64,000 nucleotides of DNA, taken from the NCBI RefSeq assembly GCF_029910095.1, contig NZ_CP094526.1:5332001-5396000 (forward strand), read 5' to 3'. This stretch comes from Bradyrhizobium sp. ISRA464. Its GTDB lineage: Bacteria > Pseudomonadota > Alphaproteobacteria > Rhizobiales > Xanthobacteraceae. Positions 25,423 through 58,256 of the stretch are shown here, piece after piece. The notes under the pieces are model-generated. The model did not search any database and was not told where the DNA came from. It was given only the letters and a program-made list of their open reading frames with translations. Made by a program: the position numbers and the translations under genes. The stretch's first letter is position 1. Each line of letters starts with the position of its first letter.

Positions 25423-26802
25423 TCAATGCGATTGTGACTGCGGCGCCTGCACATCCAGGTTTAATAGCTTGCACACCGTCGCCTTTGGGGGCTGGACGAC
25501 CTCCGTGCTGCATGTCACAGGACTCGACAACGTCTGCTTTGTTCCGTTGCCGTTGTTCACCTCTGAGGCCAGCCGGCCAAACAGAATATAGTTTCCGGGG
25601 CGCCCCACGGCGGGCAGCGAGGCCATCGCAGTGATCGAGCCGTCGGCCGGCTTCTTGCCGGGTTCGACCTGCAGTTTGGTATTGGCTGACGACACGATGG
25701 CTCCGGTCGCCTTGTCGTAAACAGTCAGCTGAAGCGTCCGGTTGGACGGATAATCGGCCGGGACTTTCAGGGGAATTTCGACGTTGAGCTTGTCGCTGGT
25801 GCTCAGCGCCAGGACGCCCGCGTTGGGCTGCTTGCCCGCGACCACCTTGCTGACAGGCAGGAACGCCGGTTTCGCCATGTCGTTAAGCGGCGCAGAATAG
25901 CCGAATTGCTTCGGATCCGGCGTCAATTGGCTCGGCCCGCATTGCCGGCCGCCGCGTTCGGAGGTCGTGTACTGACACACGCGCACATAATCGATCTTGA
26001 AGGTCTGCGGAAACGCGGCCTCGTCAATGCCGTGCCGCCCAGCCCATTTGCTGCCGCCGACGGCAAAGTTGAGATCGACATGCGCGGGCGGTCCAAGCTT
26101 TCCGTCGCTGCGCAGCCATTGGTAGTTACGCGTGTAGATCAGCTTGCCATCCCAGAACAGCGAGATCTTGTCGGGCGCCCACACGAAGCCGGCGGTGTGC
26201 CACCCCTGATTGAGATCCTCGCTTCCATACATGTTCTGGAATTTGAGCTCGAACGAGCGGTCGACATGGGTGTATTGCTTCGGATCGAAGGGCGCCACCA
26301 CATTCGAGTGCAGCGAGTTCGCCTTGTCCTCGACGCCATTGATGACAAACTCGAAGATGTCGATCTCCGGCGGATGCCAGGTCTTGCCGTCGATATCGTA
26401 GTCGGCCTCGAGCCAGAACGCCGGCCAGACTCCCTTGGCGTTGGGCAGGAACACGCGCGCTTCATAATACCCGTAGTAGAACGTTCGATGACTGCGGATC
26501 ATCGCGGATTCGTACAGGTTGGGCGATCCCGGCATCTTCTTTGCAATCAGATTTAGAACGCCGTCCGCCACGACGTGGCCGTCGCGATAGCGTTGGTTCT
26601 CGTCGTTGAAGTGGTCCATCGTCTCATTCGAATAAAGATAACGCGTGGCCCATTTGGTGCGATCGAGCTTGTCGCCGTTGAACTCGTCCGAAAACACCAG
26701 TTCCCATCCTGCCGACCGCGCCGGCGTCGACGTTGCTGTCAGCGCCGCAGTCAACAACAGCAGTATCGGGAGAACGCGCTTAGCAATCTCGGTGAGGTTC
26801 AT
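25423..26802 (-). CDS. Sec-exported GH16 glycanase (ExoK-like)
   Basis: A protein of 459 residues. A Sec signal peptide covers about residues 1-30 (VLPILLLLTAALTATSTPARSAG). The GH16 domain spans about 32-290, with ELVFSDEFNGDKLDRTKW, WPAFWLEADY and the catalytic motif EIDIFE near 145-150. The C-terminal 150 residues form an extra beta-rich domain with VEIPLKVPADYPSNRTLQL and no known family. ExoK of S. meliloti is a similar but shorter secreted endoglycanase that sets EPS chain length. It is divergent from the GT25 gene and shares a 233-base or longer upstream region with it. Confidence 0.88.
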   Translation of the reverse strand: MNLTEIAKRVLPILLLLTAALTATSTPARSAGWELVFSDEFNGDKLDRTKWATRYLYSNETMDHFNDENQRYRDGHVVADGVLNLIAKKMPGSPNLYESAMIRSHRTFYYGYYEARVFLPNAKGVWPAFWLEADYDIDGKTWHPPEIDIFEFVINGVEDKANSLHSNVVAPFDPKQYTHVDRSFELKFQNMYGSEDLNQGWHTAGFVWAPDKISLFWDGKLIYTRNYQWLRSDGKLGPPAHVDLNFAVGGSKWAGRHGIDEAAFPQTFKIDYVRVCQYTTSERGGRQCGPSQLTPDPKQFGYSAPLNDMAKPAFLPVSKVVAGKQPNAGVLALSTSDKLNVEIPLKVPADYPSNRTLQLTVYDKATGAIVSSANTKLQVEPGKKPADGSITAMASLPAVGRPGNYILFGRLASEVNNGNGTKQTLSSPVTCSTEVVQPPKATVCKLLNLDVQAPQSQSH

Positions 26803-29228: not shown

Positions 29229-30509
29229 ATGACTTTTGAGATTCAGGTTCCTATGGCGGCGCCGGCCGGAGCTGCGCATTCACAGCTGGCGGCGTCGGAC
29301 ACCGAACTCAGCAAGTCGGGACGATATGCCGTATGGGCATCGATCGTCTCCATTCTGTTCCTGTCGCAAATTGCCTACAACATCAACACGTTCCCGGCGT
29401 CGACCGACCTCATCTGCTATGCCGCCGTGACGGCATATCTGCTGATCAGCGGCTTCGCTTCGATCGGATTCCTGTCTCTGGCGCTGTTCGTCGTCGCGCT
29501 GGTGTTCGCCTGTTTCGGGACAGTGACCGCGACATCGTCGACGTCGTGGACCTCGCTGATGCTGCTCTTCGTTCTCTATGCGCCGTTCGCCATTCGGTTG
29601 AAGGGGGAGCCGGAGGGAGTCCACGAATACATCCTGTCCGCCTACGTCTCGGCAGCAACCTTCATCGCCGGCGTTGCGATCGTACAGATCGTGCTCGTCA
29701 ACGCCACCAAATCGTCGCTACTGACCAACATCTACTTCAATCTGCCCGAAGCCATTCGCGGTGCCGGACACTACACCTTCGTCCGCGAAGGCGGCGGCAT
29801 CATCAAGGCAAACGGCTTCTTCCTCCGCGAGTCGGCTGACCTTTCGCTCGTCGTTGCGCTAGCCCTCATCATCGAGGTCGGGTCGCGGGCGAGACTGCGC
29901 ACCATGGGCATTCTCGTGGCAGGATTGCTGTGTTCGCTATCCGGCACCGGCCTGCTCGCGATCACGGCCGGCTTCTTGCTGCCGAGATCCGTCTTTCGCA
30001 TCCCGCTGTTCATCGTCTATCTCGTCGGTCTGATCCTGGCGCTGTACCTGCTTTACAGTCTGGACGTTCCGGGTCTGGACCTGTGGTTCGACCGCCTCTC
30101 GGAGTTTCAAACACCGAATACCAGCGCCTATGCGCGCTTCGTCGCGCCGATGGAAATGATCGGACACAGCTTTGACAACGGCCTGCTCGCCACCTGGTTC
30201 GGCAATGGCGCGGGCAGCTATCTCAGGGACGTCCAACTCTACCACATGAACTATGAGGTCAACGATCCGACCTGGGCAAAGCTCACTTATGAGTATGGCC
30301 TGTTCGGCTTTGTCCTGATCTTTGCCATTCTCGTGCAACGATTGTACTCGAGCCGGCTGCGCATCGAGATCTGCAACTTTCTGCTGTTCAGCTGGATCAG
30401 TGTCGGCCTCGTGCTCAAGCCGAGCTTTGCGCTGATCGTCTGGTTGCTGACATTGGTCGGAAACCCGGCACGCCGACCGCCCCAACGCACAAGACCACCA
30501 GCGGGTTGA
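29229..30509 (+). CDS. Wzy-type EPS polymerase
   Basis: A 426-residue protein with about ten membrane helices and a large periplasmic loop at roughly residues 275-350. The fold and the region GIIKANGFFLRESADLSLVV with SLSGTGLLAITAGFLL resemble O-antigen polymerase/ExoQ proteins. RFVAPMEMIGHSF and GNGAGSYLRD are typical of the loop region. It should join undecaprenyl-linked repeat units in the periplasm after Wzx flipping, under chain-length control by ExoP. Wzy proteins are very divergent, so this rests on topology, loop motifs and context. Confidence 0.78.
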   Translation: MTFEIQVPMAAPAGAAHSQLAASDTELSKSGRYAVWASIVSILFLSQIAYNINTFPASTDLICYAAVTAYLLISGFASIGFLSLALFVVALVFACFGTVTATSSTSWTSLMLLFVLYAPFAIRLKGEPEGVHEYILSAYVSAATFIAGVAIVQIVLVNATKSSLLTNIYFNLPEAIRGAGHYTFVREGGGIIKANGFFLRESADLSLVVALALIIEVGSRARLRTMGILVAGLLCSLSGTGLLAITAGFLLPRSVFRIPLFIVYLVGLILALYLLYSLDVPGLDLWFDRLSEFQTPNTSAYARFVAPMEMIGHSFDNGLLATWFGNGAGSYLRDVQLYHMNYEVNDPTWAKLTYEYGLFGFVLIFAILVQRLYSSRLRIEICNFLLFSWISVGLVLKPSFALIVWLLTLVGNPARRPPQRTRPPAG

Positions 30510-30821: not shown

Positions 30822-31829
30822 TTGGCCAGGCTTCTCTCTATCCAATATTTGCGAGCATTTGCAGCTTTCGGGGTCGTCGCTTTTCACGCGCAAGGCTTCA
30901 CCTACGGCCGGACGCTCGTCATCGGCAGCGCCGGCGTGGACATATTCTTTGTGGTCAGCGGATTCGTCATGTGGACCGTGAGCGCATACCGCACGCAGAC
31001 GCCGGCGGAGTTCTTTGTAAGCCGCATCGTCCGAATCGTCCCGATGTATTGGTTCGTGACGCTTTCCTTCGTCGCCGCGGCACTTGTCTTTCCGGCGCTG
31101 TTTCCGCGGCTCGTCGTCAGCACCACGCACACGCTCGCATCTCTCTTCTTTGTTCCGATGCGATCTCCGAGCAACGGCGAGATCTGGCCGGTGGTGGTGC
31201 CAGGGTGGACCCTGAACTGCGAGATGTTCTTCTATGCCATTTTTGCCTTGGCACTCTTCCTCGACAACACCAGGCGGCTGCTCTTCCTGGCCGCGACGTT
31301 CTTCGTTATGATCCTGGTCGGTCGCCTCTACACCGGCGACAGTCCGCCGATCATTTTCTACACCAACCCGATCATGCTTGAGTTCCCGGCGGGGATTCTG
31401 CTGGGAAGAGCCTTCGAGCAGGATCGCCTGCCGCGGCTCCGCTGGGGTTATGTCGCGCTGGCGGCCGGTCTATTGCTGTTTGCCGCCTCAGCCTGGCTCG
31501 CGATCGACTCGCCGCGCGTGGCGGTGTGGGGCATTCCGGCGTTCCTCGTCGTTGCTGGAGCCGTCATCATCGAAAAGAACCGGAGCGTCCGCCTTGTTCC
31601 TGTCCTTGCCCTGCTCGGCGATGCCTCATACTCGATCTACCTGACGCATACCCTCACCATTTCCGCGATCGGAAAGTTCAAGGCATACTTGAATCCAGCG
31701 ACGTTCTTCGTTGCAAGCTTGGCGCTTTCGGCCTTGATCGGCGTCGCCGCATGGCGGCTGGTCGAGCGTCCCTTCGCCGAGTTTCTCAAGCCACGTCCCA
31801 GGGTTCAGCAACCGCATTTCGCGGAGTGA
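30822..31829 (+). CDS. Acyltransferase 3 family membrane protein (second copy)
   Basis: A protein of 335 residues with about ten hydrophobic helices, related to the gene at 23147-24280. It has LLSIQYLRAFAAFGVVAFHA with the catalytic histidine, GSAGVDIFFVVSGFVMW, RIVRIVPMYWFVTL, WPVVVPGWTLNCEMFFYAIF and LLGDASYSIYLTHTL. The start is a TTG at 30822 with GGGAG six bases before it; it places the first motif at the expected distance from the N-terminus. It probably O-acylates the polysaccharide or its lipid-linked precursor. It converges with the GT2 gene on the other strand, leaving 18 bases between stops. Confidence 0.87.
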   Translation: MARLLSIQYLRAFAAFGVVAFHAQGFTYGRTLVIGSAGVDIFFVVSGFVMWTVSAYRTQTPAEFFVSRIVRIVPMYWFVTLSFVAAALVFPALFPRLVVSTTHTLASLFFVPMRSPSNGEIWPVVVPGWTLNCEMFFYAIFALALFLDNTRRLLFLAATFFVMILVGRLYTGDSPPIIFYTNPIMLEFPAGILLGRAFEQDRLPRLRWGYVALAAGLLLFAASAWLAIDSPRVAVWGIPAFLVVAGAVIIEKNRSVRLVPVLALLGDASYSIYLTHTLTISAIGKFKAYLNPATFFVASLALSALIGVAAWRLVERPFAEFLKPRPRVQQPHFAE

Positions 31830-33174: not shown

Positions 33175-35097
33175 GTGTCCGCAGAGCTATATCGAGAACT
33201 CGCCTGGCTTCCAAAACCTCCGTCCGATTTCTCGATCCGCTGCAGGGAACTGGCAAGCGGTTCCGACAGCGCCCCCGGAAAGAAAATCAGAGCACTCGCG
33301 ACCTACGCACTCGATGAGCGGCAACTGTCGAGACTCGGACGGACGATTCGATCGTTGCAACTCGGCGGCGAGTCTCTCGCACCGCTCGTCCCCTTTCGCC
33401 TCGGCTTGATCGGAAACGGAACGCTCGACCTGATCGTTCCCGTTTTGGTTGCAACGGCGGCCCGCCATGGTTTTGCGCTCGAATGCGTCACCGGCGCCTA
33501 TGATCAATATCTGCAAGACGCGCTGCAGCCAGAGTCCCTTCTCAACAAGGCGCAGCCCGACGCAGTCCTTGTTGCGCTCGATCATCGGGGATTGTCGCTG
33601 CATCCCTGCCCGGGCAACGAGCAACTAGCCACCGAGACCGTTGACGCGGCAATCGGACTTCTCGATTCGATCCGTGCCGGCATATCGCGCAACAGCGGCG
33701 CGCTGTGCATCTTGCAAACGCTCGCCGCGCCGCCCGAAGGACTGTTCGGATCCTTCGACCGCTCTCTGGCCGGCACGGCCCGCAATCTGGTCGATCGCGT
33801 CAATCAGAAGATCTCGCACGCGGTGCTGCAGTCGACCGACATGCTGCTCGACGTCGCCGGGATCGCCGAGACCGTTGGCCTTGCCGACTGGCACTCTCCG
33901 GCCCAGTGGAATCTCGCAAAACTGCCGTTCGCGGATGCCCTGGTGCCGCTTTACGCCGAGCATGTCGTGCGCATCATCGGCGCGCTGCGCGGCAAGAGCC
34001 GCCGCGTGCTCGTGCTCGATCTCGACAACACCGTCTGGGGTGGCGTGATCGGCGACGACGGCATGGAAGGCATCCAGATCGCGCAGGGCGACGCCACCGG
34101 CGAGGCGCATCTTTCCGTCCAGCAGCTCGCGCTGACATTGCGGGCGCGCGGCATCGTGCTCGCGGTGAGCTCAAAGAACACCGACAGCGTCGCGCGGCGG
34201 CCGTTCAAGGAACACCCGGACATGCTGTTGAAGGAAGAGCACATCGCGGTGTTCCAGGCCAACTGGAACGACAAGGCGACCAACATCCGCGCCATCGCAA
34301 AGGAGCTTGCGCTCGGACTCGATTCCTTCGTCTTCCTCGATGACAATCCGGTCGAACGCGGCCTGATCCGGCAGGAGCTTCCAGAGGTGGCGGTGCCCGA
34401 GCTCGATGCCGACCCCGCGAGCTACGCCCGCACGCTGGCCGCGGCCGGCTACTTCGAGGCGATCAATTTCTCCGAGGAAGACCGCGCGCGCGCCGAAATG
34501 TATCAGGCCAATGCACGCCGGCTCAGCCTCCAGGGCCAGGCGACCGATCTCAAGTCCTACCTGCGGTCACTGGAAATGCGCATCGTGTTCGGCCCCTTCG
34601 ACCGGACAACGCGAGCCCGCGTCACCCAGCTGATCAACAAGAGCAACCAGTTCAACCTGACGACGCGCCGCTACACCGAATCCCAGGTCGAGCAGTTGGA
34701 GGCCGACGACGGCGTCATGACGCTGCACGCGCGGCTGATCGACAAGTTCGGCGACAACGGCATCATCTGCGTGATCATCTGTCGCGCCACCGGCCGCAAC
34801 ACCTGGACGATCGACAGCTGGCTGATGAGCTGCCGGGTGCTCGGACGATGCGTCGAGCAGGCCGTGCTGGCCGAGATCGTCTTGCGGGCGCGCGCCGCCG
34901 GCATCACGACCCTCGAGGGCGTCTATCTTCCGACCGACAGGAACGAGATGGTCCGCGACCACTACGGCAAGCTCGGCTTCGCGCGCCTTGACGATGGCGC
35001 TGACGGAAGCAGCCGCTGGGCACTCCGGACCGACGTTGAACTGGAAGCTTTGCCGATGACGGTTCAGCGCGACGAGAAGCAGTTTGAGCCGGCTTGA
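33175..35097 (+). CDS. FkbH-type HAD-IIIC enzyme (hydroxyacyl-carrier-protein loading)
   Basis: About 640 residues. After an N-terminal region typical of the family (ELAWLPKPPSDFSIRC), an SGNH-like part spans 60-250. The HAD phosphatase motif LDLDNTVWGGVIGDDG is near 280, with the nucleophilic aspartate in DLDNT, then SSKNT and FLDDNPVERGLI. The C-terminal GNAT-like part has IDSWLMSCRVLGR near 550, containing a cysteine that may carry the acyl group. FkbH enzymes in polyketide pathways dephosphorylate bisphosphoglycerate and load a glyceryl group onto an acyl carrier protein. A carrier protein gene lies 2.7 kb downstream in the same operon. The start is the GTG at 33175, preceded by AAGGGA; longer starts (33103, 33016) are possible. 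Confidence 0.88.
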   Translation: MSAELYRELAWLPKPPSDFSIRCRELASGSDSAPGKKIRALATYALDERQLSRLGRTIRSLQLGGESLAPLVPFRLGLIGNGTLDLIVPVLVATAARHGFALECVTGAYDQYLQDALQPESLLNKAQPDAVLVALDHRGLSLHPCPGNEQLATETVDAAIGLLDSIRAGISRNSGALCILQTLAAPPEGLFGSFDRSLAGTARNLVDRVNQKISHAVLQSTDMLLDVAGIAETVGLADWHSPAQWNLAKLPFADALVPLYAEHVVRIIGALRGKSRRVLVLDLDNTVWGGVIGDDGMEGIQIAQGDATGEAHLSVQQLALTLRARGIVLAVSSKNTDSVARRPFKEHPDMLLKEEHIAVFQANWNDKATNIRAIAKELALGLDSFVFLDDNPVERGLIRQELPEVAVPELDADPASYARTLAAAGYFEAINFSEEDRARAEMYQANARRLSLQGQATDLKSYLRSLEMRIVFGPFDRTTRARVTQLINKSNQFNLTTRRYTESQVEQLEADDGVMTLHARLIDKFGDNGIICVIICRATGRNTWTIDSWLMSCRVLGRCVEQAVLAEIVLRARAAGITTLEGVYLPTDRNEMVRDHYGKLGFARLDDGADGSSRWALRTDVELEALPMTVQRDEKQFEPA

Positions 35098-35156
35098 TCG
35101 GATCAGATCGCCGACAGACTTGAACGATAACTTCTGAGAGCCTCGAGCCCACGGAC

Positions 35157-36596
35157 ATGAGTCTGACATCGCCCCTGTTTTTTGCCTTTCTTGCCGCGGT
35201 CGTTGTGGCCTTTCACATCAGTGAATCGGTCGGCTATCGACGGTTCGTGCTTGGGGCCGCGAATGCGATCTTCATCGCAAGCTACTTGAGCGACGTCACG
35301 CAGGTGTTGCCGCTGCTCGCCTTCCTGGCACTCGGCTATGTCTGTGTATCCGCGCTTTACCTGCGCCAGTCGCCTCTGGTGCTGACGGCGGGCGTCGTCG
35401 CGATCCTTTGCTGCTACGTGTTCCTGAAGCGGTTCTCCTTCTTTGAAGGGTTGGGCCAACTTCCGTTCCCGTATCTGACGGTCGGGCTTTCGTACATCCT
35501 GTTCCGCATCCTGCACATCATGGTGGATGTGCGATCCGGAGATCTCACCGAGCGAATTGGTCCGCTGGCGTTCCTTCGCTTCACCTGCAACTTCCTGTGC
35601 TTCGTCTCCGGCCCGATCCAGCGCTATCAGGATTTCAACGCGATGGATGGGAAGGCCGCAGTCCGGCTCGACGCGTCGGTGGTTTATGCGGCGTTTTCCA
35701 GAATCGCGACCGGCTACGTGAAATTTGTCATCATTGCCGCGACCGCCGACTACGCCTTTACGTTTGTGAGTCCGCATCTGCTGCAGCCGGCCGGCCTTTC
35801 GTTCCTCAAGCTGTGCGCTGTCTATGCAACGGTCGCTTCGCTCTATACGGTCTATCTCTATTTCAATTTCTCCGGCTACATGGACATCGTGATCGGCATC
35901 GGAACCCTGCTCGGGCAAACGTTGCCGGAAAACTTCGACAGGCCGTTTTCGGCGCGCAGCTTCCTCGAGTTCTGGCAGCGCTGGCACATGACGCTGTCGC
36001 AATGGTTCAAGTTCTATCTCTTCAATCCCCTCCTGATGTTCCTGATGACCTGGCTGCCGTCACCGGCGCTGACGTCCTATCTGGGCGTTCTCGCGTTCTT
36101 CATCACGTTCGGCGTGATGGGCGTCTGGCACGGCACGACCGCGGTCTTCGTCATCTACGGCCTCCTGATGGGCGCCGGCGCTAGCATCAACAAGCTCTGG
36201 CAGGTGGCGTGCACCGAACGCCTCGGCAAGAAGCGCTATCGCGCGCTGACCGAATCCACCGCCTACATCTATGTCGCGCGTGGCCTCACGGTCGCCTATT
36301 TCGTGCTGGCACTGACCTGCCTCTGGGTCCCCGAGCTGCCTCAGTTCACCGCTCTGCTGGCGCGGCTCGGCTTCGCCGGTGTGGTCGCAACCTTCGTCGT
36401 GGTGGCGGCGGCGTTCGGGATCGCTGCGCTCATCCTGGATGTCGTCCAGGCTCGTCTTCGCATCCCCGTTACTCTGTCGGCGATCCGGAGCGGCGAGATC
36501 ACCAGAAATCTGCACTTGGCAGGCAAGATGATGGCGATCGTCGCCGTCGCGACCCTGCTGCACAAGGCTCCGGACTTCGTCTACAAGGCGTTCTGA
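35157..36596 (+). CDS. MBOAT-family membrane O-acyltransferase (DltB/AlgI-like)
   Basis: A protein of 479 residues with about eleven hydrophobic helices. Hallmarks of the membrane-bound O-acyltransferase family are FNFSGYMDIVIGIGTLLG, the motif EFWQRWHMTLSQW near 270 and the invariant histidine in GVMGVWHG near 323. Members such as DltB and AlgI take an activated acyl group from the cytoplasmic side and pass it to a periplasmic or extracellular polymer. Here a carrier protein, an FkbH loader and an SGNH partner are encoded around it, so the donor may be an acyl-ACP rather than acetyl-CoA. It starts 59 bases after the FkbH stop. Confidence 0.92.
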   Translation: MSLTSPLFFAFLAAVVVAFHISESVGYRRFVLGAANAIFIASYLSDVTQVLPLLAFLALGYVCVSALYLRQSPLVLTAGVVAILCCYVFLKRFSFFEGLGQLPFPYLTVGLSYILFRILHIMVDVRSGDLTERIGPLAFLRFTCNFLCFVSGPIQRYQDFNAMDGKAAVRLDASVVYAAFSRIATGYVKFVIIAATADYAFTFVSPHLLQPAGLSFLKLCAVYATVASLYTVYLYFNFSGYMDIVIGIGTLLGQTLPENFDRPFSARSFLEFWQRWHMTLSQWFKFYLFNPLLMFLMTWLPSPALTSYLGVLAFFITFGVMGVWHGTTAVFVIYGLLMGAGASINKLWQVACTERLGKKRYRALTESTAYIYVARGLTVAYFVLALTCLWVPELPQFTALLARLGFAGVVATFVVVAAAFGIAALILDVVQARLRIPVTLSAIRSGEITRNLHLAGKMMAIVAVATLLHKAPDFVYKAF

Positions 36597-36598
36597 AA

Positions 36599-37714
36599 TT
36601 GAAATACATCCTTCGACAGTCGGCGTTCACCTTGTTGTCGTTCGCCTTTCTATATGTGCTGCTCGCCGGCGCGTCGTTCCTCGTCTTTCCGGGCCCATCG
36701 AGCGCCGGTCCGCGGGATTTCCAGGCCGCGGGAGAAACGCTCTACATGACAGTTCCCAAATATGTCTTCCTTGGCCGCAGCGTGCTGGCCAACCCGGATC
36801 GGAAGATCATTCTGGTGGGAGCATCGAATACCGGAGTCGGATTCCGGCAGAAGCTCGTGCAGTCGAAACTCGCCTGCGCCAAGGTCAGCAACCTCGCGAT
36901 GGGGGGCGCCAACATCACCGAGGTCAGGCAGGTGATCGATCTTGTCCACGATGTGCAGACCGATCAGGAGCGCCGGCAAAATACCTTCGTCATCGGCATC
37001 TGGTTCGGCATGTTCATCGATTCGGATGTGAAATTTGCCGATGGCGACCGCCATCGCGGCGAGAGCGATATCGATATCGAACGGTACCGCTACGGCTTCT
37101 ATCGTCGCACGCCCGACGGTCCGGTTGCGGTGTTGCCACCGCAATGGCTGGACGCGGGTGTCATGGCGATCCGGCCGTTCCTGCTGCTCGAGAAGGCCGC
37201 GCGCGAGGCCCGGGCCGGCGTCAATCTCGTGATGACCGGCCGCACCAGCGCCCAACGCACCGACGACGAGCGCGAAAGCGTCGTGATGACGGAGGCGGAC
37301 AAGCAAAAGGCGTTGCAATACTGGACGGAGACCATGGGGCGCCCCAACGACATTGCTCCAGGCCAGGTCGACGTCCTGAAAAAGACCATCCAGGCGCTGC
37401 TGGATTCAGGAGAGAAGGTCGTGCTCGTCGACCTGCCGATCCCCGCCTGGCATCGCGATGCAAGCCCGTATGAACCGAGCTACCGGCTGGCGCTGAAGGG
37501 CCTGCTTCAGGAATTCGGCGATCAGCCGAACTTCGCCTCGCTGAGCATGGACGACCTCGACAACGACCTCGACTATTCGGACGAGGTGCACGCCAAGCGG
37601 CATCTGGCCGATGTCTGGTCGATCAGGCTGGCGAAGACGCTGGATTCGTTCCTCTGCCAGCAGAAGCCCGACAACGCGCCACGGGTCACCACCGTGCGCT
37701 CTTCGGAGGGGTGA
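36599..37714 (+). CDS. SGNH-like membrane-anchored MBOAT partner (DltD/AlgJ-like)
   Basis: About 371 residues from a TTG at 36599, two bases after the MBOAT stop. Residues 8-30 are one membrane helix (FTLLSFAFLYVLLAGASFLV), the rest periplasmic. The motif ILVGASNTGVGF near 77 fits an SGNH nucleophile block and SDEVHAKRH near 326 fits the catalytic Asp-x-x-His block; LAMGGANITEVRQ is the block II glycine region. Partners of this kind (DltD, AlgJ, AlgX, PatB) complete acyl transfer outside the membrane. The open frame extends upstream over the MBOAT gene in another frame, but that part has no signal. No family name beyond SGNH-like is claimed. Confidence 0.8.
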   Translation: MKYILRQSAFTLLSFAFLYVLLAGASFLVFPGPSSAGPRDFQAAGETLYMTVPKYVFLGRSVLANPDRKIILVGASNTGVGFRQKLVQSKLACAKVSNLAMGGANITEVRQVIDLVHDVQTDQERRQNTFVIGIWFGMFIDSDVKFADGDRHRGESDIDIERYRYGFYRRTPDGPVAVLPPQWLDAGVMAIRPFLLLEKAAREARAGVNLVMTGRTSAQRTDDERESVVMTEADKQKALQYWTETMGRPNDIAPGQVDVLKKTIQALLDSGEKVVLVDLPIPAWHRDASPYEPSYRLALKGLLQEFGDQPNFASLSMDDLDNDLDYSDEVHAKRHLADVWSIRLAKTLDSFLCQQKPDNAPRVTTVRSSEG

Positions 37715-37793
37715 CAGCGGTTCCGGACAACTGACCGGCACGCAATCCGCGCGCCGCGCGCCACCACAACTCAGTCGACAAAGGAAGACGCAA

Positions 37794-38033
37794 ATGGAGA
37801 AGGCCGAAGTCTACAGCAAGCTCACCGCCGTTTTTCAGGACGTCTTTGACGAGGACGACCTTGCGCTGACGCCGCAAACCACTGCCGACGACGTCGATGG
37901 CTGGGACAGCCTGTCTCATATCCGCCTTGTGCTGGCCGTATCGAAGGCCTTCGGCGTGAAGTTCTCGGCTTCCGAGATCGGCGGCCTCAAGAATGTCGGC
38001 GAGTTCGCCGACCTGATCGAGAAGAAGGCGTAA
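37794..38033 (+). CDS. Acyl carrier protein
   Basis: A protein of 79 residues, the normal ACP length. The phosphopantetheine serine is in the motif GWDSLSHIRL near residue 40, followed by helix III features (FGVKFSASEIGGLKNVGEFADLI). Acidic residues dominate helix II, as expected. The ATG at 37794 has AAGGAAG eight bases upstream. It is not beside fatty-acid synthesis genes; its neighbours are an SGNH protein and a VOC protein, so it probably carries the hydroxyacyl group loaded by FkbH for the MBOAT enzyme, as DltC does for D-alanine. Confidence 0.92.
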   Translation: MEKAEVYSKLTAVFQDVFDEDDLALTPQTTADDVDGWDSLSHIRLVLAVSKAFGVKFSASEIGGLKNVGEFADLIEKKA

Positions 38034-38039
38034 CGGCGC

Positions 38040-38504
38040 GTGAACCACCCGGCGAACCACATCGCGTCAGCATCGGACGTACTGGCCTTCCATCACCTCG
38101 GGCTTGCGGTCGCCGCCCCGGAGGAGGCCTTTCGTTACCTGGCGTCACTCGGCTATGTCCCGGGAAACTCCGCTTACGATCCGATACAGCGGGTCAACCT
38201 CGCCATGCGGCATCACCCGGTGATGCCGGATGTCGAGGTGATCTGGCCGGGCGACGGCCCCTCCCCCATCGACAAGCTGATCAAGCGGACCGGCACCATG
38301 ATCTACCATTTGTGCTACGCCTGCCCCAATGCCGAACGCGCGCTCGATGCGCTGGCGGCGTCCGGGGTCGAGATCGTGCCGGTCGGCACGCCCGCGCCGG
38401 CGATATTGTTCGGCGGCCAGAAGGTCTCGTTTCACCACGTTTCCGGTTTCGGCCTCATTGAGCTTCTCGAAACCGACATTGAACCTCAGGCGACGATTGC
38501 ATGA
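38040..38504 (+). CDS. VOC-superfamily protein (glyoxalase/epimerase-like)
   Basis: A protein of 154 residues with one vicinal-oxygen-chelate domain. FHHLGLAVAAPEEAFRYL near residue 17, IYHLCYACPNAERALDAL near 90 and GLIELLE near 140 supply histidine and glutamate ligands in the order found in methylmalonyl-CoA epimerase-like proteins. It starts with a GTG six bases after the ACP stop and ends by overlapping the next start (ATGA), so it is translationally tied to the ACP gene. It may epimerise or otherwise process the ACP-bound acid; the reaction is not known. Confidence 0.8.
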   Translation: MNHPANHIASASDVLAFHHLGLAVAAPEEAFRYLASLGYVPGNSAYDPIQRVNLAMRHHPVMPDVEVIWPGDGPSPIDKLIKRTGTMIYHLCYACPNAERALDALAASGVEIVPVGTPAPAILFGGQKVSFHHVSGFGLIELLETDIEPQATIA

Positions 38505-38962
38505 AGACCGCTTACTGGGTACGCCGCTTCAGTCATGTCAGCCGCATTCCGTGCAGCCTGACGCTCGCTGCCCTGCTTGTCGCAGTGCCGGCACAGGCTC
38601 AGGTCGTCGGCTTCGGACGATCGTCGGCGCCAATGTACGGAGGAACCGGCGTGTCGCCGATGCCCGCGAACCCGTTCCCGCCGATGAAGGGTACATATGC
38701 GCCGCCCCATAAGGCGCCGGACGGGACAGCCTGCATATCGGTCCATCCGTCGACGCATCCGCAGGTCATCAATCCGAAGATCATCGATCAGATCGTGACC
38801 TTGAACAACGCTTGCGGCCAGTCCATCAACGTTCAGGTCTGCTATGCCGGCAGTTCGGACTGCATCAAGGTTGCACTGAGCGGCTACCAGAAGCTGCAAA
38901 GGATCCTCGGGATCTCGGCGGGCTCGACCGCATTCCGCTACGAGTACCGCGAGCTCTATTGA
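38501..38962 (+). CDS. Secreted protein of unknown function
   Basis: A protein of 153 residues with a Sec signal (IPCSLTLAALLVAVPAQAQ, cleavage after AQA likely). The mature part is proline-rich at first (PMPANPFPPMKG), then has four cysteines (CISV, NACGQ, VCYAG, DCIKV) that could form two disulphides. No family was recognised. It overlaps the VOC gene by four bases and the next small frame by one base, so it belongs to the same transcript as the ACP and MBOAT genes, and a periplasmic role in the same modification is likely but unproven. Confidence 0.7.
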   Translation: MKTAYWVRRFSHVSRIPCSLTLAALLVAVPAQAQVVGFGRSSAPMYGGTGVSPMPANPFPPMKGTYAPPHKAPDGTACISVHPSTHPQVINPKIIDQIVTLNNACGQSINVQVCYAGSSDCIKVALSGYQKLQRILGISAGSTAFRYEYRELY

Positions 38963-39096
38963 TGGCGCAGTCAACACCACCCGCAGCCCTTGTCGGGTCG
39001 CACGATGCTTGCCCGCCGACGCATGTGGTCACTCATGACATCCTGACGGAGATCTACCGCGCCGAATTCAGCATCCTCACTCGAACCGGGCCTTGA
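38962..39096 (+). CDS. Putative 44-residue coupled small protein
   Basis: A short frame whose ATG shares one base with the stop of the secreted-protein gene (TGATG) and whose stop is four bases before the SDR start. The product begins MAQSTPPAALVGSHDACPPT; it has no membrane segment and no known family. Position and tight spacing suggest a translated gene; it could also be a remnant or a coupling leader. Confidence 0.4.
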   Translation: MAQSTPPAALVGSHDACPPTHVVTHDILTEIYRAEFSILTRTGP

Positions 39097-39100
39097 GCGC

Positions 39101-40084
39101 ATGTCCAACACCACTCAGGCAATCGTATTCGGAGGTGCCGGCTTCATCGGAACGCATCTGATGAACCGGCTGGTCGCATCCGGGCAATACCGGCGGGTCG
39201 TTGCCGCCGACATCGGCAAACCGAGAACCCTGGTTGCCGGCGTCGAATATGTCCATCACGATGTCCGCGAGCCGGTCGACCCTAAGCTCGCACGCGGCCT
39301 GCCTGCCGACATCTTCAATCTGGCGGCGATCCACACGACACCGGGCCACCCGGACGGCGAATACTACTACACCAATGTGCTCGGAGCGGTGAACGTGTGC
39401 CGGTTTGCCAAGGAAACTGGCAGCCGGAATATCACTTTCACAAGCTCGATATCCATTTACGGTCCGAGCGAAGCCCCGCTTGACGAAGACTCGCAGCCCG
39501 CGCCGGTCAGCGCCTACGGACGTTCAAAGCTATCGGCCGAAGCCATCCATCGTCTTTGGCAGTCAGAGGACGCGGCAAGACGACTCACGATCGTTCGCCC
39601 CGCCGTTATCTACGGCCTCTATGAGGGAGGCAATTTCACGCGGCTGTCGCGGCTGCTGCAAAGACGGGCTTTCGTCTATCCCGGCCGAACCGATACCATC
39701 AAGTCGTGCGGCTATGTGAAGGACCTGGTGTCGTCGATGCTCTTCATGGCGGCACGCAACGATGGCGTGTCGGTCTACAATTTCTGCTACGAGCACCGCT
39801 ACACGATCAGCGACATCTGCGCAGCGTTCACGCAGGCCGCCGGCTACAAGAAGCCAACGCTGACCATTCCGATATGGTTCATGAATCTCGCCGTCCTTCC
39901 GTTCGAGGTGCTGCACAAGGCCGGCATCAAGACCGGGATCAACCGCGAACGCATCCGGAAGTTGTGGTTCTCAACGAACATCCTGCCGAAGCGGTTGGTC
40001 GCCAGCGGGTTCAAGTTCGACTACGACGTAACGAGCTCGCTTCACGAATGGAAGCACGACTCCGGCATCGGCGATTTCGATTGA
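39101..40084 (+). CDS. NAD-dependent epimerase/dehydratase (extended SDR)
   Basis: A protein of 327 residues with the nucleotide motif FGGAGFIGTHL near residue 10, FTSSISIYGPSEAPLDE near 118 (catalytic serine), and YGRSK near 142 (catalytic tyrosine and lysine). It belongs to the nucleotide-sugar epimerase/dehydratase branch, but substrate motifs do not point to a known member. IPIWFMNLAVLPFEVLHKAG near 260 is unusually hydrophobic and may touch the membrane. It is the last gene of the FkbH-MBOAT-ACP run. It may make the sugar that receives the acyl group. Confidence 0.82.
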   Translation: MSNTTQAIVFGGAGFIGTHLMNRLVASGQYRRVVAADIGKPRTLVAGVEYVHHDVREPVDPKLARGLPADIFNLAAIHTTPGHPDGEYYYTNVLGAVNVCRFAKETGSRNITFTSSISIYGPSEAPLDEDSQPAPVSAYGRSKLSAEAIHRLWQSEDAARRLTIVRPAVIYGLYEGGNFTRLSRLLQRRAFVYPGRTDTIKSCGYVKDLVSSMLFMAARNDGVSVYNFCYEHRYTISDICAAFTQAAGYKKPTLTIPIWFMNLAVLPFEVLHKAGIKTGINRERIRKLWFSTNILPKRLVASGFKFDYDVTSSLHEWKHDSGIGDFD

Positions 40085-40733: not shown

Positions 40734-43148
40734 ATGCTCCAAACTCGAATCACACCCCCTCGCGAGATCGAATCTCCCACGCAAGAGTCGGCTTCGCTGG
40801 AGCAGACGATTTCTGCCGCGGTCGCGCTGATCGGCCGCCAGTACCCTGTGATGATTTTCGTGATGTGCCTGTGCATCGGTCTGGCCGGCGTCTATTTGGT
40901 GACCGCACCGAAGCGATATACCGGCACCGCCGTGCTCCTGATCGACAGCCGCAAGATGCAGGGCCTGCAGACCCAGCAGGCAACCACCGCCGACAGTTCG
41001 ATCGACTCGGCCATGGTCGACAGCCAGGTCGAAGTGCTGAAGTCCGAGACCATTGCGACAAACGTCATCAAGCAGCTGCACCTGCTCGATTCGCCTGAGT
41101 TCACCGGCGAGGAAGCTGGGCTGCTCTCCAGCGTCTCGAACCTGTTTTCCTGGATGTTTCCGGAACAGCGCCCGTCCGAAGCCGCATTGATGCGTATCGC
41201 GATCGGCAAGGTGCTCGGCAACCTCTCGATCAAGCGCGTCGGCCTGAGCTATGTCATCGAGATTTCCTACCAGTCGCGCTCGCCCGACGAGGCCGCACGT
41301 ATCGCGAATGCGGTGGCCGAAGGCTACATCAACGATTCGCTGGAGTCGAAATATCAGGCGTCACGGCGCGCGGCGGTCTGGCTACAGGATCGGCTGAAGG
41401 AACTGCGGACGGAGGCATCCACCGCAGAACGCGCCGTCGTCGACTTCAAGGCGAAGAACAACATCGTCGATGCCGGCGGGCGGCTGCTGACCGAGCAGCA
41501 GCTGGCGGAGATCAACAGTTCTCTGACGCAGGCTCGCGCACAGCGCGCCGAAGCGCAGGCCAAGCTCGAGCGGATCACGGCAATTCTGAATTCGGACGAC
41601 GGCGACTCCAAGGTCATCCTGAATGATCTGGCGACCGTGACCGACACCATGAACAATCCGGTGATCACCAAACTGCGGCAGACCTATCTCGATTACGCGG
41701 CGCGTGAGGCCGACTGGTCCAATCGATACGGACCGACCCACCTTGCGGTCGTCAACCTGCGCAACCAGATGCGCGAAATCAGGCATTCGATCACCGATGA
41801 GCTGCGGCGCACGGCCGAGGTCTACAAGAGCGACCTCGCGATTGCGAAAGCGCGCGAGGAATCCAGTCAAAAGAGCCTGAACGATACAATCGCGTTGTCC
41901 AATGGCACCAATCAGGCACAGATCGCCTTGCGCGATCTGGAGAGCAATGCACAGAGCGCCCGCGCGCTGTCGGACAACTTCCTGCAGCTCTACATGGTCT
42001 CGGTTCAGCAGCAATCGTTTCCGATCACTGAAGCGCGCGTGATCACGCAGGCGTCCAATGCTCCCAACAAGACATCGCCCAAGACGACCCTCATTCTGCT
42101 GGCGACGCTGATCGGCGGGGCAATCCTCGCAGGGGGCGTCGCCGTGCTGCTCGACATGATGGATCGGGTGTTCAGAACGGTGTCTCAGGTCGAGCAGTAC
42201 CTCCACACTAGCTGCCTTGCCTCGATCCCGACGATCGGCAGCGAGCAGAACGCGCGCCTGGCCTCGCATCCTCTGCTGTCCAGAGCAGGACGGCTGTTCA
42301 ACAGGCGAACGAAGAAACCGCAGCCAGCGGCACCAAAGCCGGTTGCAGCGGCAGCTTCGGGTCTGCCGCTGGGAAAACCCGAACTCAGGTCAAGACACCC
42401 GCAGCCACATGGCGATCGTCTATTGGCGGCCGACCAGAGCGTCGGCAGATACGTGATCAACTCGCCCTTCTCGCGCTTTGCGGAGGGCTTCCGTTCGATC
42501 AAGCTTGCATGCGATCTCAGCAGCTACGGATCGTCCAACAAGGTGGTGGGCATTACCTCCGGGCTTCCCAATGAGGGCAAATCCACGGTCAGCGAGGCGC
42601 TGGCCCAGACCGTTGCACAGAGCGGCTCCCGGACGCTCCTGATCGACGGTGATATCCGCAATCCAAGCCTCACCGCGAGGCTGGCGTCCTCCGCGCAGGC
42701 CGGCTTGATCGACGTTGTCCTGGGCAGGGTCGATTGGACGGATGCGGTCTGGATCGATCCCCAGACCAATCTTCATTTCATGCCGTGCGTTGTGACCTCA
42801 CGCTTCTCCAATTCCAGCGACGTGCTGGCCTCGCAGCAAATGGAACGATTGTTCCAGCATCTGAGGGAGCACTACGATCGCATCATCCTCGACCTCAGCC
42901 CGCTCGCACCAGTGATCGACGTTCGCGCCACCGGGGCGCTGGCGGATTCGTATATTCTGGTCGTCGAATGGGCCAAGGCCAAGGTCGACATTCTCGAGCG
43001 CGTGCTGAGCGAAGCCCCTGTCGTCCGCGAACGCATGCTTGGTGCAGTCCTTAACAAAGTGAACATGGCGGTGATGAGCCGCTACGACATCTACAGCGCC
43101 GGCTACTACCGCAATCGGTACTACAAGCGGTACGGCTACGTCGACTAG
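40734..43148 (+). CDS. exoP: ExoP: polysaccharide co-polymerase fused to BY-kinase
   Basis: A protein of 804 residues. An N-terminal Wzz domain lies between two membrane helices (about 38-58 and 451-474), with a coiled-coil periplasmic part of about 390 residues. The C-terminal tyrosine-kinase domain has Walker A GLPNEGKST near 608, Walker A' LLIDGDIRNP near 635 and Walker B IILDLSPL near 717. The tail is a tyrosine cluster (eight tyrosines in the last 21 residues, including GYYRNRYY) for autophosphorylation. ExoP/Wzc controls chain length and couples polymerisation to export through the OPX lipoprotein. It stands alone, with transposase relics on each side, so it may have been rearranged into this place. 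Confidence 0.94.
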   Translation: MLQTRITPPREIESPTQESASLEQTISAAVALIGRQYPVMIFVMCLCIGLAGVYLVTAPKRYTGTAVLLIDSRKMQGLQTQQATTADSSIDSAMVDSQVEVLKSETIATNVIKQLHLLDSPEFTGEEAGLLSSVSNLFSWMFPEQRPSEAALMRIAIGKVLGNLSIKRVGLSYVIEISYQSRSPDEAARIANAVAEGYINDSLESKYQASRRAAVWLQDRLKELRTEASTAERAVVDFKAKNNIVDAGGRLLTEQQLAEINSSLTQARAQRAEAQAKLERITAILNSDDGDSKVILNDLATVTDTMNNPVITKLRQTYLDYAAREADWSNRYGPTHLAVVNLRNQMREIRHSITDELRRTAEVYKSDLAIAKAREESSQKSLNDTIALSNGTNQAQIALRDLESNAQSARALSDNFLQLYMVSVQQQSFPITEARVITQASNAPNKTSPKTTLILLATLIGGAILAGGVAVLLDMMDRVFRTVSQVEQYLHTSCLASIPTIGSEQNARLASHPLLSRAGRLFNRRTKKPQPAAPKPVAAAASGLPLGKPELRSRHPQPHGDRLLAADQSVGRYVINSPFSRFAEGFRSIKLACDLSSYGSSNKVVGITSGLPNEGKSTVSEALAQTVAQSGSRTLLIDGDIRNPSLTARLASSAQAGLIDVVLGRVDWTDAVWIDPQTNLHFMPCVVTSRFSNSSDVLASQQMERLFQHLREHYDRIILDLSPLAPVIDVRATGALADSYILVVEWAKAKVDILERVLSEAPVVRERMLGAVLNKVNMAVMSRYDIYSAGYYRNRYYKRYGYVD

Positions 43149-49312: not shown

Positions 49313-50509
49313 TCACTGGCGCGAGTTGATTCGTAGGATCTGCGCGTTGTTCGCGGCGACAATCGTGCTGTTGGCGGTGCCGACTACCGCCTGGACGAAC
49401 TGCAGGAACTTTGTCGTGTCGACGGTCGCGGCGTTTGCGGCAAACAACACGTCCTTGTCCCGCATTTCAAACTTGCTGGCGAGGAAGAAGCCGGACGGAT
49501 CGCGGAAGTCGGCATTGTAGACCACGGGCACCAGCGGACCGGTGAACCTGGAGCAGTCGACGCCCAGTCGTTCCACCAGCTCGCGCGGCTCGCGCCGATA
49601 GACATAGACGCCCGCGGGTTCTGCCTGCGCATCAATCAGGCCACCAGCCTTGGCCATCGCCTGCGCCATGGTGATCTTCCACATATCGAATGGGAATTGG
49701 GCCTGCCCGCCGAAGTTTCCTCCGATCGTGAACGCGCCAAAGGCGAGGAAGACCTGCGGTTCGCGGTAGACATAGATCGTGTCGCCGGGATGGACCCAGA
49801 CGTTGTTAGCCGGCTGATACACCAAGGCTCCGAACGGAACCGTGGCGCGCTTGCCGCCGCGCTCCAGCGTCACCCAACTCTCCCAGCCCGGCCCCGTCAG
49901 GCCGCCGGCGCGCGCGATCAGGTCAAGCACCCGCTCGCCGGCCGCATTCGCGGTCAAACGGGCCGGCGTTCTCACTTCACCCAGCACGCTGATAAGAGAA
50001 GTGTTTTGCGTGATCAAGGACACCACGACTTGCGGTTCAATGGCGCGGTTTCCGATTGCCTTCACGATATCGCGCTGGATGTCGGTCGGGGTACGGCCGT
50101 TGGCCTTCACTTGACCTGCGTAGGGAACTGTAATGTTCCCGTTCAAATCAACGTTCTGGTTTGGCAAGGCCACAAAGTTACCTGGCCGCACACCGGCCTC
50201 TGCCGGGATAAACAAGCCTCCGGCGGCGGCTTCGAAGATCGACACGGCCACCGTGTCTCCGATGCCAAATCTGATGCCTGGCGGTGGCCGACGATCGGGA
50301 AACGACCCCGCGATGGCTCCAGGGCCATATTCCTTCAGGATGTCGACAACGGTCGGTGTGAGCTTGACCAAGACGTAATCCGGCCCCGACCGCGTAATCT
50401 CGCTCTTGATGACGTGATCTTCCGGCCCGGACGATGGCATGATCGCGCATCCCGCGGAAGAAAGCAGAATGCCGAGCAAGACTCCCCATACTAAAACGCT
50501 ACGCCTCAC
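49313..50509 (-). CDS. Outer-membrane polysaccharide export lipoprotein (OPX, Wza/ExoF type)
   Basis: A protein of 398 residues. The signal ends in a lipobox (SSAGC near 21) followed by AIMPSSGP, the usual Wza start. A polysaccharide-export domain with FGIGDTVAVSIFEAA and NVDLNGNITVPYAGQVKANG spans about 80-165, then SLBB-like repeats (ISVLGEVRTPARLTANAAGERVLDLIARAGG) to about 290. The C-terminal VLFAANAATVDTTKFLQFV may include the outer-membrane helix. It should form the export channel for polymer handed over by ExoP. It is transcribed alone on the minus strand. Confidence 0.9.
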   Translation of the reverse strand: MRRSVLVWGVLLGILLSSAGCAIMPSSGPEDHVIKSEITRSGPDYVLVKLTPTVVDILKEYGPGAIAGSFPDRRPPPGIRFGIGDTVAVSIFEAAAGGLFIPAEAGVRPGNFVALPNQNVDLNGNITVPYAGQVKANGRTPTDIQRDIVKAIGNRAIEPQVVVSLITQNTSLISVLGEVRTPARLTANAAGERVLDLIARAGGLTGPGWESWVTLERGGKRATVPFGALVYQPANNVWVHPGDTIYVYREPQVFLAFGAFTIGGNFGGQAQFPFDMWKITMAQAMAKAGGLIDAQAEPAGVYVYRREPRELVERLGVDCSRFTGPLVPVVYNADFRDPSGFFLASKFEMRDKDVLFAANAATVDTTKFLQFVQAVVGTANSTIVAANNAQILRINSRQ

Positions 50510-56267: not shown

Positions 56268-57707
56268 TCAATAGGCCTCCTGGTACATCAGCGCGGTCGC
56301 CGTCCGGATGATGATCCGGATGTCGAGCCAGATGCTCCAATTGCTCACATACCAGACGTCATACTCGACGCGCTTTTCCATCAGATCGATGGTCGGGGTT
56401 TCGCCGCGGAAGCCGTTGACCTGGGCCCATCCGGTCAGGCCGGGCTTCATGTGGTGCCGGTAGACGTATTTGCTGATCAGCTGGTCGTAGTAATTGTCGT
56501 GGGCCAGCGCGTGCGGACGCGGACCGACCAGGGACATCTCGCCGCGCAGCACGTTCCAGAGCTGCGGCAACTCGTCGATGCTGGTCTTGCGCAGGAAGCG
56601 TCCGACCCGCGTCACCCGCTTGTCCTGCTTGGTGGCCTGCGTGACGGTGGAGCCGTTCTCGGCTACGGTCATGCTGCGGAATTTCCAGATCTGGAATGGC
56701 TTGCCGTTGAAGCCGCGGCGCGACTGCCGGAAGATGATCGGACCGGGTGTATCGAGCTTGACGAGCAGCGCCGCCGTCAGGATCAGCGGCGCCAGCATCA
56801 GCAGGGCAAAGGACGCCAGTCCGATGTCGAGGCAGCGCTTCTGGACCCGCTCGAACACGGACAGCGGCGGCCGCTGGATCTCGATCGCCACGGTCCCGCT
56901 GACCGGCAGGAACGGCCGCGACACCAGATCGGCGATCGGAAAATCGGGCAGCAGGCGGATCGGCTGCGGAACCACCCGAAGATGCTGGCTCAGCTTCTGC
57001 AGCATCGGCAGCTCGTTCCAGTCGATCGCCACGAGATATTCGTCGACGTCAGCCGCACGCGACTGACGGATCACGTCGGCGATCTGCTGGCTCCAGGCCC
57101 GGTCGTCCTGCTCCGGACCCACGCTGAGCACGAAATGGCGCACGACGTCGAAACCGTGCTTGCGAAGATCCTTGAAACGGTTCGACGTGAAATCCAGCGA
57201 GCGCAGGCTGAGCATGATGACCTTGCGGTCGATCAGCCGCTCCTTGGCAAAGGACGACGACAGGCAGTAGCGCCAGATCACACGGTGCGCGACAAGCCCA
57301 AGCGCTCCGATCACCGTGAACAGGATGATCGTGCCGCGAGACAGGTTGGCCGTCGACTTCAAAAGGAACGCCGCGACGGCCAGTGTCGTCAGCGCGAACA
57401 GCCAGGTGAACAGGACCTTGCGCGATTGCCAGAGCGTATTCAGCAATCTGTGGTTGTCATAGGTGCCCTGAAAATAAGCGGCTACCACGAACACGATGCC
57501 GACAATCAGTCCGGCGCCGACCGAATTGTCCGGGTCGGTCGGCGAATTCATGAACGCACGATAGAGCGTGCTCGCAGCCATGTAGCTGAGCAGGATGAGA
57601 AGGAAGTCGCCGGCGATGACGAAAAGCTGAAACGGTCTCTGCAGCGAGGTCCCGCGGTTCGACGTCAGTATGTGGATTCCATCGGAGCCGTATGCTGTTG
57701 CAGACAT
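56268..57707 (-). CDS. Undecaprenyl-phosphate hexose-1-phosphate transferase (WbaP/ExoY type)
   Basis: About 479 residues. Four or five N-terminal helices (GDFLLILLSYMAAS, VGIVFVVAAYF, FTWLFALTTLAVAAFLL), a nucleotide-binding-like middle and a C-terminal bacterial sugar transferase domain from about 290: KRCLDIGLASFALLMLAPLI, WKFRSMTV, DELPQLWNVLRGEMSLVGPRP and KPGLTGWAQVNGFRGET. Members move glucose-1-P or galactose-1-P to undecaprenyl phosphate, the first step of the repeat unit. The start at 57707 has GAGG seven bases upstream; ATGs at 57722 and 57719 are possible, and a frame open to 58052 is not coding-like. Confidence 0.92.
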   Translation of the reverse strand: MSATAYGSDGIHILTSNRGTSLQRPFQLFVIAGDFLLILLSYMAASTLYRAFMNSPTDPDNSVGAGLIVGIVFVVAAYFQGTYDNHRLLNTLWQSRKVLFTWLFALTTLAVAAFLLKSTANLSRGTIILFTVIGALGLVAHRVIWRYCLSSSFAKERLIDRKVIMLSLRSLDFTSNRFKDLRKHGFDVVRHFVLSVGPEQDDRAWSQQIADVIRQSRAADVDEYLVAIDWNELPMLQKLSQHLRVVPQPIRLLPDFPIADLVSRPFLPVSGTVAIEIQRPPLSVFERVQKRCLDIGLASFALLMLAPLILTAALLVKLDTPGPIIFRQSRRGFNGKPFQIWKFRSMTVAENGSTVTQATKQDKRVTRVGRFLRKTSIDELPQLWNVLRGEMSLVGPRPHALAHDNYYDQLISKYVYRHHMKPGLTGWAQVNGFRGETPTIDLMEKRVEYDVWYVSNWSIWLDIRIIIRTATALMYQEAY

Positions 57708-58256
57708 CTCGAACCTCATCATCACTTCAACGGTCGCGCGCCGCGTGAAAGAAAATGGACAAAGCCAACAAACTTCGGTGGGAACGACTCGACCACCGCG
57801 AAACGATCTAGCGCCAAAAGCTTGCCTGGGAAGTTCGGGTTCGCGCGAAGCCAGCGGAAGTTGTTTAGCAAACGAAGCGATATTGTGGCGCCGCACTAGG
57901 AAAATCAATTTCGCTCTTCGCATTGCAAAAATGTGACGCGCACTTCGATCACAGCATGATGCATGAGCAATCAATTCGTGATGCGCGATTGTTCGGCGCG
58001 CAGGGAACTCATGCGTCATGAGTACTGCGCAATGAAGAGCGACTGATTGCACAGCTTGACATCATGCGATTGAGATTTCCCTGTGCAACGCACCGCTGCT
58101 CGCGACGAGCGCGTACGAAACAGGTTCGTTGATTCGTCTCTCCAGGCATGCAGTTCGTTCCGCACACCACTCTGATGTCACGACAATTCGACTGTGGCGC
58201 TTAAACCAATCTTAGCTCGCCGTCGTTAGGGACTGTGGCGTCGAGGAGTAACGAGT
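57708..58256. other. Divergent promoter region with a dyad
   Basis: 549 bases between the priming transferase and the small membrane protein; no gene is supported. At 58008-58022 CTCATG-CGT-CATGAG is a perfect inverted repeat. A TTGACA near 58056 would be a -35 box for the plus direction but lacks a good -10 at the normal distance. Confidence 0.4.

Follow-up and report, generated by a model that had tools for sequence, protein, structure and literature searches.

In the Dlt pathway of teichoic acid D-alanylation (DltA, DltC, DltB, DltX and DltD), a dedicated carrier, an MBOAT acyltransferase and an SGNH partner are combined with an adenylating ligase and with a separate micropeptide, DltX. 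PatA/PatB and AlgI-type O-acetylation combines an MBOAT that ends in an FxYxxF motif with a separate SGNH protein, and is described in passages of PMC12148441 as carrier-less and acyl-CoA-using; the same passages of this 2025 article, which also cover the C-terminal acyl-shuttle motif of MBOATs and its role, state that a carrier protein is lacking in all MBOAT/SGNH routes except Dlt. In polyketide routes, glyceryl is supplied by FkbH and a stand-alone acyl carrier protein (ACP), as with FkbH and Mad7/Mad8; sections of PMC7489565 give FkbH as the likely maker of glyceryl-ACP in tetronate routes, and describe dehydrogenases that oxidise glyceryl-ACP further in methoxymalonyl routes. Here we analyse a 64,000-nucleotide stretch (the window) of Bradyrhizobium sp. 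ISRA464, whose genome is a single contig of 8.46 Mb (NZ_CP094526.1, with the window at contig positions 5332001-5396000), and in which genes recalling each of these systems form one module. This module is probably a carrier-fed MBOAT/SGNH acyl-transfer machine in which FkbH does the charging instead of a DltA-type ligase, the shuttle is fused to the MBOAT, and a glyceryl ester is placed on exopolysaccharide.

The module is a plus-strand run of six genes (33175-38962) encoding FkbH, MBOAT, an SGNH protein, an ACP, a VOC protein and a small secreted protein, with intergenic gaps of 59, 2, 79, 6 and -4 bases in gene order. An earlier note on this DNA had described a single plus-strand run with all of these genes, which the common strand and the small gaps bear out; the right edge that it gave, 39096, marks where a short overlapping open reading frame (ORF) ends, one for which no support was found, and the last gene ends at 38962. 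FkbH (TIGR01686) and MBOAT (PF03062) have one match each genome-wide, 59 bases apart, an adjacency with a chance of ~1e-5 in 8.46 Mb by a simple estimate. With a lone FkbH beside a lone MBOAT, and the set conserved elsewhere, the gene grouping is more than chance.

The first gene (33175..35097, plus strand, GTG start) encodes a 640-aa FkbH-type HAD-IIIC acyl-ACP loading enzyme. Its FkbH domain scores 296.4 bits with NCBIfam TIGR01686 (cut-off 146.65), the HAD-IIIC model is likewise over its cut-off, and residues 70-435 match PDB 3slr (E 5.9e-57); the Pfam model of the N-terminal part of FkbH falls short of its cut-off here (20.5 vs 27 bits). The HAD DxDxT motif is present as DLDNT at residue 282, and the cysteine of the C-terminal SCR motif is Cys553, which we take to be the C-terminal acyl-carrying cysteine. 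No protein of the genome reaches the cut-off of the model for a DltA-type D-alanine ligase (TIGR01734), and its 65 weaker matches all lie outside the window.

The second gene (35157..36596, plus strand) encodes a 479-aa MBOAT acyltransferase (PF03062, 45.8 bits vs cut-off 27), whose PDB sequence matches are just two DltB structures, 8jem and 6bug (E ~6e-30). When it is aligned with 19 homologues picked from the best 120 matches, His277 and His325 are invariant, as are F474, Y476 and F479 of its last six residues, FVYKAF (36576..36593, plus strand); FxYxxF stands strictly at the C terminus in all 20 sequences. This acyl-shuttle hexapeptide, with its Tyr476, is new here and was absent from the earlier note, which had equated the protein with DltB. 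The equation stands insofar as DltB structures are the sole PDB relatives; it fails in that the fused FxYxxF gives the layout of PatA/AlgI, not that of DltB plus DltX, and the protein scores under the DltB equivalog cut-off (TIGR04091, 175.6 vs 375 bits).

The SGNH partner (36599..37714, plus strand, TTG start) has 371 residues, an N-terminal helix (residues 2-29) and a Ser76-Asp328-His331 triad that is invariant in 20 aligned sequences. It matches no Pfam family at E 0.001 and no sequence family over cut-off, its lone SGNH-family match being sub-threshold (16.1 vs 27 bits). Its structure is predicted as an SGNH fold (pLDDT 83.6), and with Foldseek this model has six matches at E <= 0.001, every one a Dlt entry; four are chains named DltD, and the other two, chains of 3bma, are presumably DltD as well. 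By its predicted fold, and at low TM-scores, the protein is thus a DltD-like partner. SGNH proteins of another type, recognised by their motifs by eye, occur near four of the loci collected elsewhere (L033, L039, L133 and L125).

Between the SGNH and VOC genes lies that of a dedicated ACP (37794..38033, plus strand; 79 aa; PF00550), with Ser39 inside a DSL motif; its best solved match is PDB 2lml (E 6.5e-20), and its score with the housekeeping ACP model TIGR00517 is far below cut-off (22.7 vs 70.45 bits). The 154-aa VOC protein (38040..38504, plus strand) belongs to PF13669 (Glyoxalase_4), and an alignment of 22 sequences gives four metal ligands, His19, Glu66, His90 and Glu141. Its model (pLDDT 87.8) is epimerase/glyoxalase-like, the nearest structures being 3hdp and 2qh0, which carry the name lactoylglutathione lyase (glyoxalase I), followed by methylmalonyl-CoA epimerases. 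The fold and the four metal ligands of methylmalonyl-CoA epimerase are present; the score with the model of that family, TIGR03081, is 31.3 bits, below the cut-off of 114.95.

Hence the key residues named in the earlier note, DLDNT and the SCR cysteine in FkbH, the DSL serine in ACP and the MBOAT histidine, are all in place, and the Dlt-like layout that it proposed holds: ACP, MBOAT and SGNH match, FkbH sits at the place of the adenylating enzyme, and the DltA model is below cut-off genome-wide. Unlike Dlt, the module has FkbH for the ligase, an added VOC, a Gram-negative exopolysaccharide setting, and its shuttle hexapeptide fused to the MBOAT in place of a separate DltX. Polyketide FkbH routes, of which OzmB is reportedly a further FkbH/ACP example of glyceryl supply, differ in turn, since in the module the acyl group would presumably be used not by a polyketide enzyme but by a membrane-bound acyltransferase encoded in a polysaccharide region.

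A scan with the MBOAT alignment found 45 loci, and profiles built from these loci were scored over the fetched stretches. FkbH is present in 39, ACP in 40, this SGNH type in 38 and VOC in 28, unlike PatA/AlgI, which is carrier-less in the account cited above. FkbH, ACP, MBOAT and SGNH occur together in 33/45 loci, and all five, with VOC, in 23/45; in each of the 39 loci holding both, FkbH and MBOAT share a strand. The FkbH-bearing loci span Pseudomonadota, Myxococcota, Planctomycetota and Bacillota, and the loci in which FkbH was not found (L017, L034, L036, L040, L042 and L044) are, all but L044, on short or early-ending stretches. Gene order is FkbH-MBOAT-SGNH-ACP-VOC in Bradyrhizobium, MBOAT-SGNH-ACP-FkbH in Rhizobacter-type loci and VOC-FkbH-ACP-MBOAT in two Bacillota loci (L045, L046). 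The earlier note had named a gene set confined to this strain as a refutation; the set is instead conserved beyond it, both among the loci found by MBOAT and in Bradyrhizobium genomes searched by SGNH. At the level of sequence, these comparisons demonstrate the parts of the module, their key residues and their recurrent association. The frequency of the shuttle motif cannot be fairly counted in the 45 loci, because one of the two fetching patterns contained it.

Two of these loci have unusual arrangements. On the L034 contig (Omnitrophota), a single ACP at 7-14 kb is surrounded by three MBOAT matches, one of them end-cut, and by two tandem SGNH genes, and FkbH is absent within reach. On the L035 contig (Planctomycetota), an additional, diverged FkbH lies at 15.7-19.1 kb, accompanied by an ACP-like ORF and, on the opposite strand, by a VOC.

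The set named in the earlier note had six genes. VOC does accompany the module in 28 of the 45 loci; the small secreted protein (38501..38962, plus strand), whose four cysteines all follow a signal-like N terminus recognised by eye, is accessory and not core. We rejected it as part of the machine, as it is matched, among the 45 loci, in the 13 Bradyrhizobium loci only. In L006 its match lies upstream of FkbH instead of downstream.

For Bradyrhizobium, any MBOAT was rejected as a marker, since 161/195 genomes have one; because of this near-ubiquity the SGNH profile was used, with at most 10 candidates scored per genome. It matches in 13 of the 195 genomes, and FkbH is over cut-off in 54. In all 13 SGNH-bearing genomes FkbH is on the same contig, 1596-1617 bases off (hypergeometric 1.8e-8, uncorrected for kinship). 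This co-location bears on a rival explanation that we consider improbable, namely that the MBOAT and SGNH proteins are an ordinary acetyl-CoA-fed O-acetylase and that FkbH and ACP form a separate neighbouring route. Passages of PMC12148441 do have other MBOAT/SGNH systems use acyl-CoA with a fused hexapeptide, and part of PMC10143770 describes a cyanobacterial peptide cluster in which FkbH (glycerate loading) and MBOAT (sugar acylation) take separate steps. In addition, FkbH and ACP occur without a nearby MBOAT in 13/20 other Hyphomicrobiales loci. Separate routes are nevertheless hard to square with the near-constant spacing in 13/13 Bradyrhizobium genomes and with a set that recurs in other groups in different gene orders. 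Furthermore, among solved structures only the carrier-fed DltB is related to the MBOAT in sequence, and no polyketide or peptide synthetase family was found among 27 Pfam-scanned window proteins, for which reason a polyketide context for the window was rejected as well.

Starting from FkbH gives a broader view of its company. In Sphingomonas it is over cut-off at 38 places in 30/295 genomes, and 30 stretches were centred on 30 of the 37 such places not reached via MBOAT, mostly the better-scoring ones. In raw counts, uncorrected for MBOAT density, these stretches hold ACP in 24 cases, MBOAT in 14 (13 of them at most 1.7 kb away, 12 on the strand of FkbH) and VOC in 4; this SGNH type is in none of the 30. 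Within the order Hyphomicrobiales, FkbH is over cut-off in 20/297 genomes, our own included. Because FkbH and ACP occur both with and without MBOAT, we regard them as a portable supplier, of which MBOAT-SGNH is one presumed user. In a tree of FkbH proteins built by a quick method (86 rows, 56 with MBOAT; matches under ~450 aa left out), the window falls in a group of 39 rows, all with MBOAT, four of them FkbH-fetched Sphingomonas rows. One of those four, L139, has a partial MBOAT match, 8.3 kb away. The tree supports the association weakly, because 34/39 rows are the window or MBOAT-fetched and one more is from a genome so reached.

Several observations weigh against the proposed machine. MBOAT is missing from 16/30 Sphingomonas FkbH stretches, two weaker over-cut-off Sphingomonas places (L179, L180) have neither ACP nor MBOAT, and the 20 loci from 19 other Hyphomicrobiales genomes, some cut by contig ends, hold ACP in 13, MBOAT in none and VOC in 1. 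In the Sphingomonas MBOATs reached via FkbH, FxYxxF is strict in 8/14, with the tyrosine present in 14/14. The Foldseek TM-scores of the SGNH model with DltD are low (0.38-0.45), and a second structure aligner gave no DltD among the 50 matches listed for this model. No polymer structure was found for this strain. Finally, VOC was not found in 17/45 MBOAT loci, and in one of these, a Rhodoferax locus (L020), an SDR gene (13195-13848) lies between ACP and FkbH; this is the sole VOC-less locus checked, and loci with a similar ACP-FkbH gap may hold the same exchange of VOC for SDR. Since VOC is patchy and L020 has an SDR, the tailoring step varies, and the transferred group may not be plain glyceryl.

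This variation is also an argument for a second rival, in which the same machine carries another cargo: FkbH, VOC and, elsewhere, SDR would give a different small hydroxyacyl group, for instance lactyl or a hydroxymalonyl derivative, that is esterified to polysaccharide. Glyoxalases and methylmalonyl-CoA epimerases alike are structurally close to the VOC model, and the oxidation of glyceryl-ACP by dehydrogenases in methoxymalonyl routes (sections of PMC7489565) provides a precedent. The window, however, has a VOC, and no scanned neighbour resembles an acyl-ACP dehydrogenase. The next gene (39101..40084, plus strand) encodes an NAD-dependent epimerase/dehydratase (PF01370), syntenic in the 13 Bradyrhizobium loci (L002-L014), and its protein scores best with sugar-epimerase models. 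We regard a different cargo as unlikely.

The steps of the favoured machine, in which glyceryl is the cargo, can be outlined as follows. FkbH would draw on a short hydroxyacyl phosphate (1,3-bisphosphoglycerate being the likeliest), remove the distal phosphate, and put glyceryl on the phosphopantetheine of the dedicated ACP (Ser39). The VOC protein would then adjust the acyl thioester, most likely by inversion at C2, from D- to L-glyceryl. The MBOAT would carry the group across the membrane to Tyr476, in the hexapeptide at its own C terminus, from which Ser76 of the SGNH protein would accept it and esterify the exopolysaccharide of the surrounding Wzc/Wza/WcaJ-type genes. 1,3-bisphosphoglycerate yields the D form of glyceryl. 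The inversion is proposed because the VOC fold is epimerase-like, the starting form is D, and gellan carries L-glycerate. We infer every one of these chemical steps, along with the glyceryl identity, the epimerase role of VOC and the exopolysaccharide acceptor.

The acceptor is suggested by the surroundings. The window encodes a Wzc-like polysaccharide co-polymerase with a kinase domain (40734..43148, plus strand; TIGR01007, 116.1 vs cut-off 108.05 bits), a Wza-like polysaccharide export protein (49313..50509, minus strand; PF02563, 52.1 vs 28 bits), a WcaJ-type initiating sugar-phosphate transferase (56268..58052, minus strand; TIGR03023, 456.7 vs 410.75 bits) and, by family scans, glycosyltransferases. 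No Wzx family match was obtained among the window proteins scanned; a 426-aa protein (29229-30509) matches no family and could be a Wzy. Two AT3 acyltransferases (23147-24280, minus strand; 30822-31829, plus strand) and a GH16 hydrolase (25423-26802, minus strand) are also encoded, which suggests that the polymer undergoes additional acylation as well as trimming.

A third rival keeps the machine and changes its target to lipopolysaccharide, a lipid-linked sugar or a glycoprotein. The two AT3 acyltransferases could serve the exopolysaccharide instead, and in L135, a Sphingomonas FkbH-ACP-MBOAT locus (about 11.8-14.7 kb), a flagellin-like ORF is seen nearby by eye, hinting that some module members decorate flagellar glycans. 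A parallel is found in the flagellin glycan locus of Campylobacter jejuni, where cj1302 (fkbH domain) stands with cj1301 (annotated epimerase) and the product bears a glyceric acid derivative; that locus, unlike the module, is a nonulosonic acid pathway, and the two are likened by description. Against another target, the window genes lie amid glycosyltransferase, Wzc, Wza and WcaJ-type genes, and elsewhere the module directly follows a WcaJ-type gene (L020) or comes shortly after Wzy- and Wzx-type genes (L041). We regard a target other than exopolysaccharide as unlikely.

Gellan, which carries L-glycerate according to part of PMC9104527, offers a further comparison. A published PCR primer, given in part of PMC6796983, was used to search 295 Sphingomonas genomes for a gellan producer and matched G524 only, with one mismatch. 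Four of six phaC primers fit the region of G524 with 1-3 mismatches and two with 5 in 18, which is chance level, so that G524 is at best a relative. A shorter FkbH-like protein (~520 aa), below cut-off and with a weak ACP-like match, is encoded in G524 (L167/L168) and in L170-L177, in no case with an MBOAT nearby, 40 kb having been covered in G524. At 12 loci the FkbH-like match is weak (below cut-off in 10, just over it in 2); an ACP-like match accompanies it in 9 and an MBOAT in none. No gellan producer is named among the best 120 of 7974 matches to a Sphingomonas FkbH. At most, this check leans slightly against the proposed machine.

MBOAT/SGNH acylation itself is known; the proposed charging enzyme and the mix of carrier and fused shuttle are new, and the module is real and conserved. 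Further new points, both from predicted models, are that the SGNH protein matches DltD first and that the VOC protein resembles methylmalonyl-CoA epimerases and a glyoxalase. In the open-licence PMC literature, covered in part beyond FkbH with polysaccharide, no case was found of FkbH joined with MBOAT in polysaccharide modification; part of PMC10143770 places the two in a single peptide cluster, each with a role of its own.

More tentatively, the module could be a third means of driving the acylation of surface polymers across the membrane, in which 1,3-bisphosphoglycerate gives both acyl group and activation, FkbH loads the carrier, VOC is a glyceryl-ACP epimerase, and the MBOAT with its fused tyrosine shuttle and the SGNH protein make L-glyceryl esters on polysaccharides in several phyla. 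If so, neither an ATP-dependent ligase nor acyl-CoA would be needed, and the source of L-glycerate in gellan-type gums could be explained. The viscosity and gelling of bacterial polysaccharides, and their recognition by hosts, are tuned by acylation. If the proposed machine is correct, a carrier-fed set that is widespread and has its shuttle fused would contradict the rule stated in the passages of PMC12148441 cited above, and polymer decoration would be tied directly to a glycolytic intermediate. The module also provides a short gene list for finding hydroxyacyl decoration of gums.

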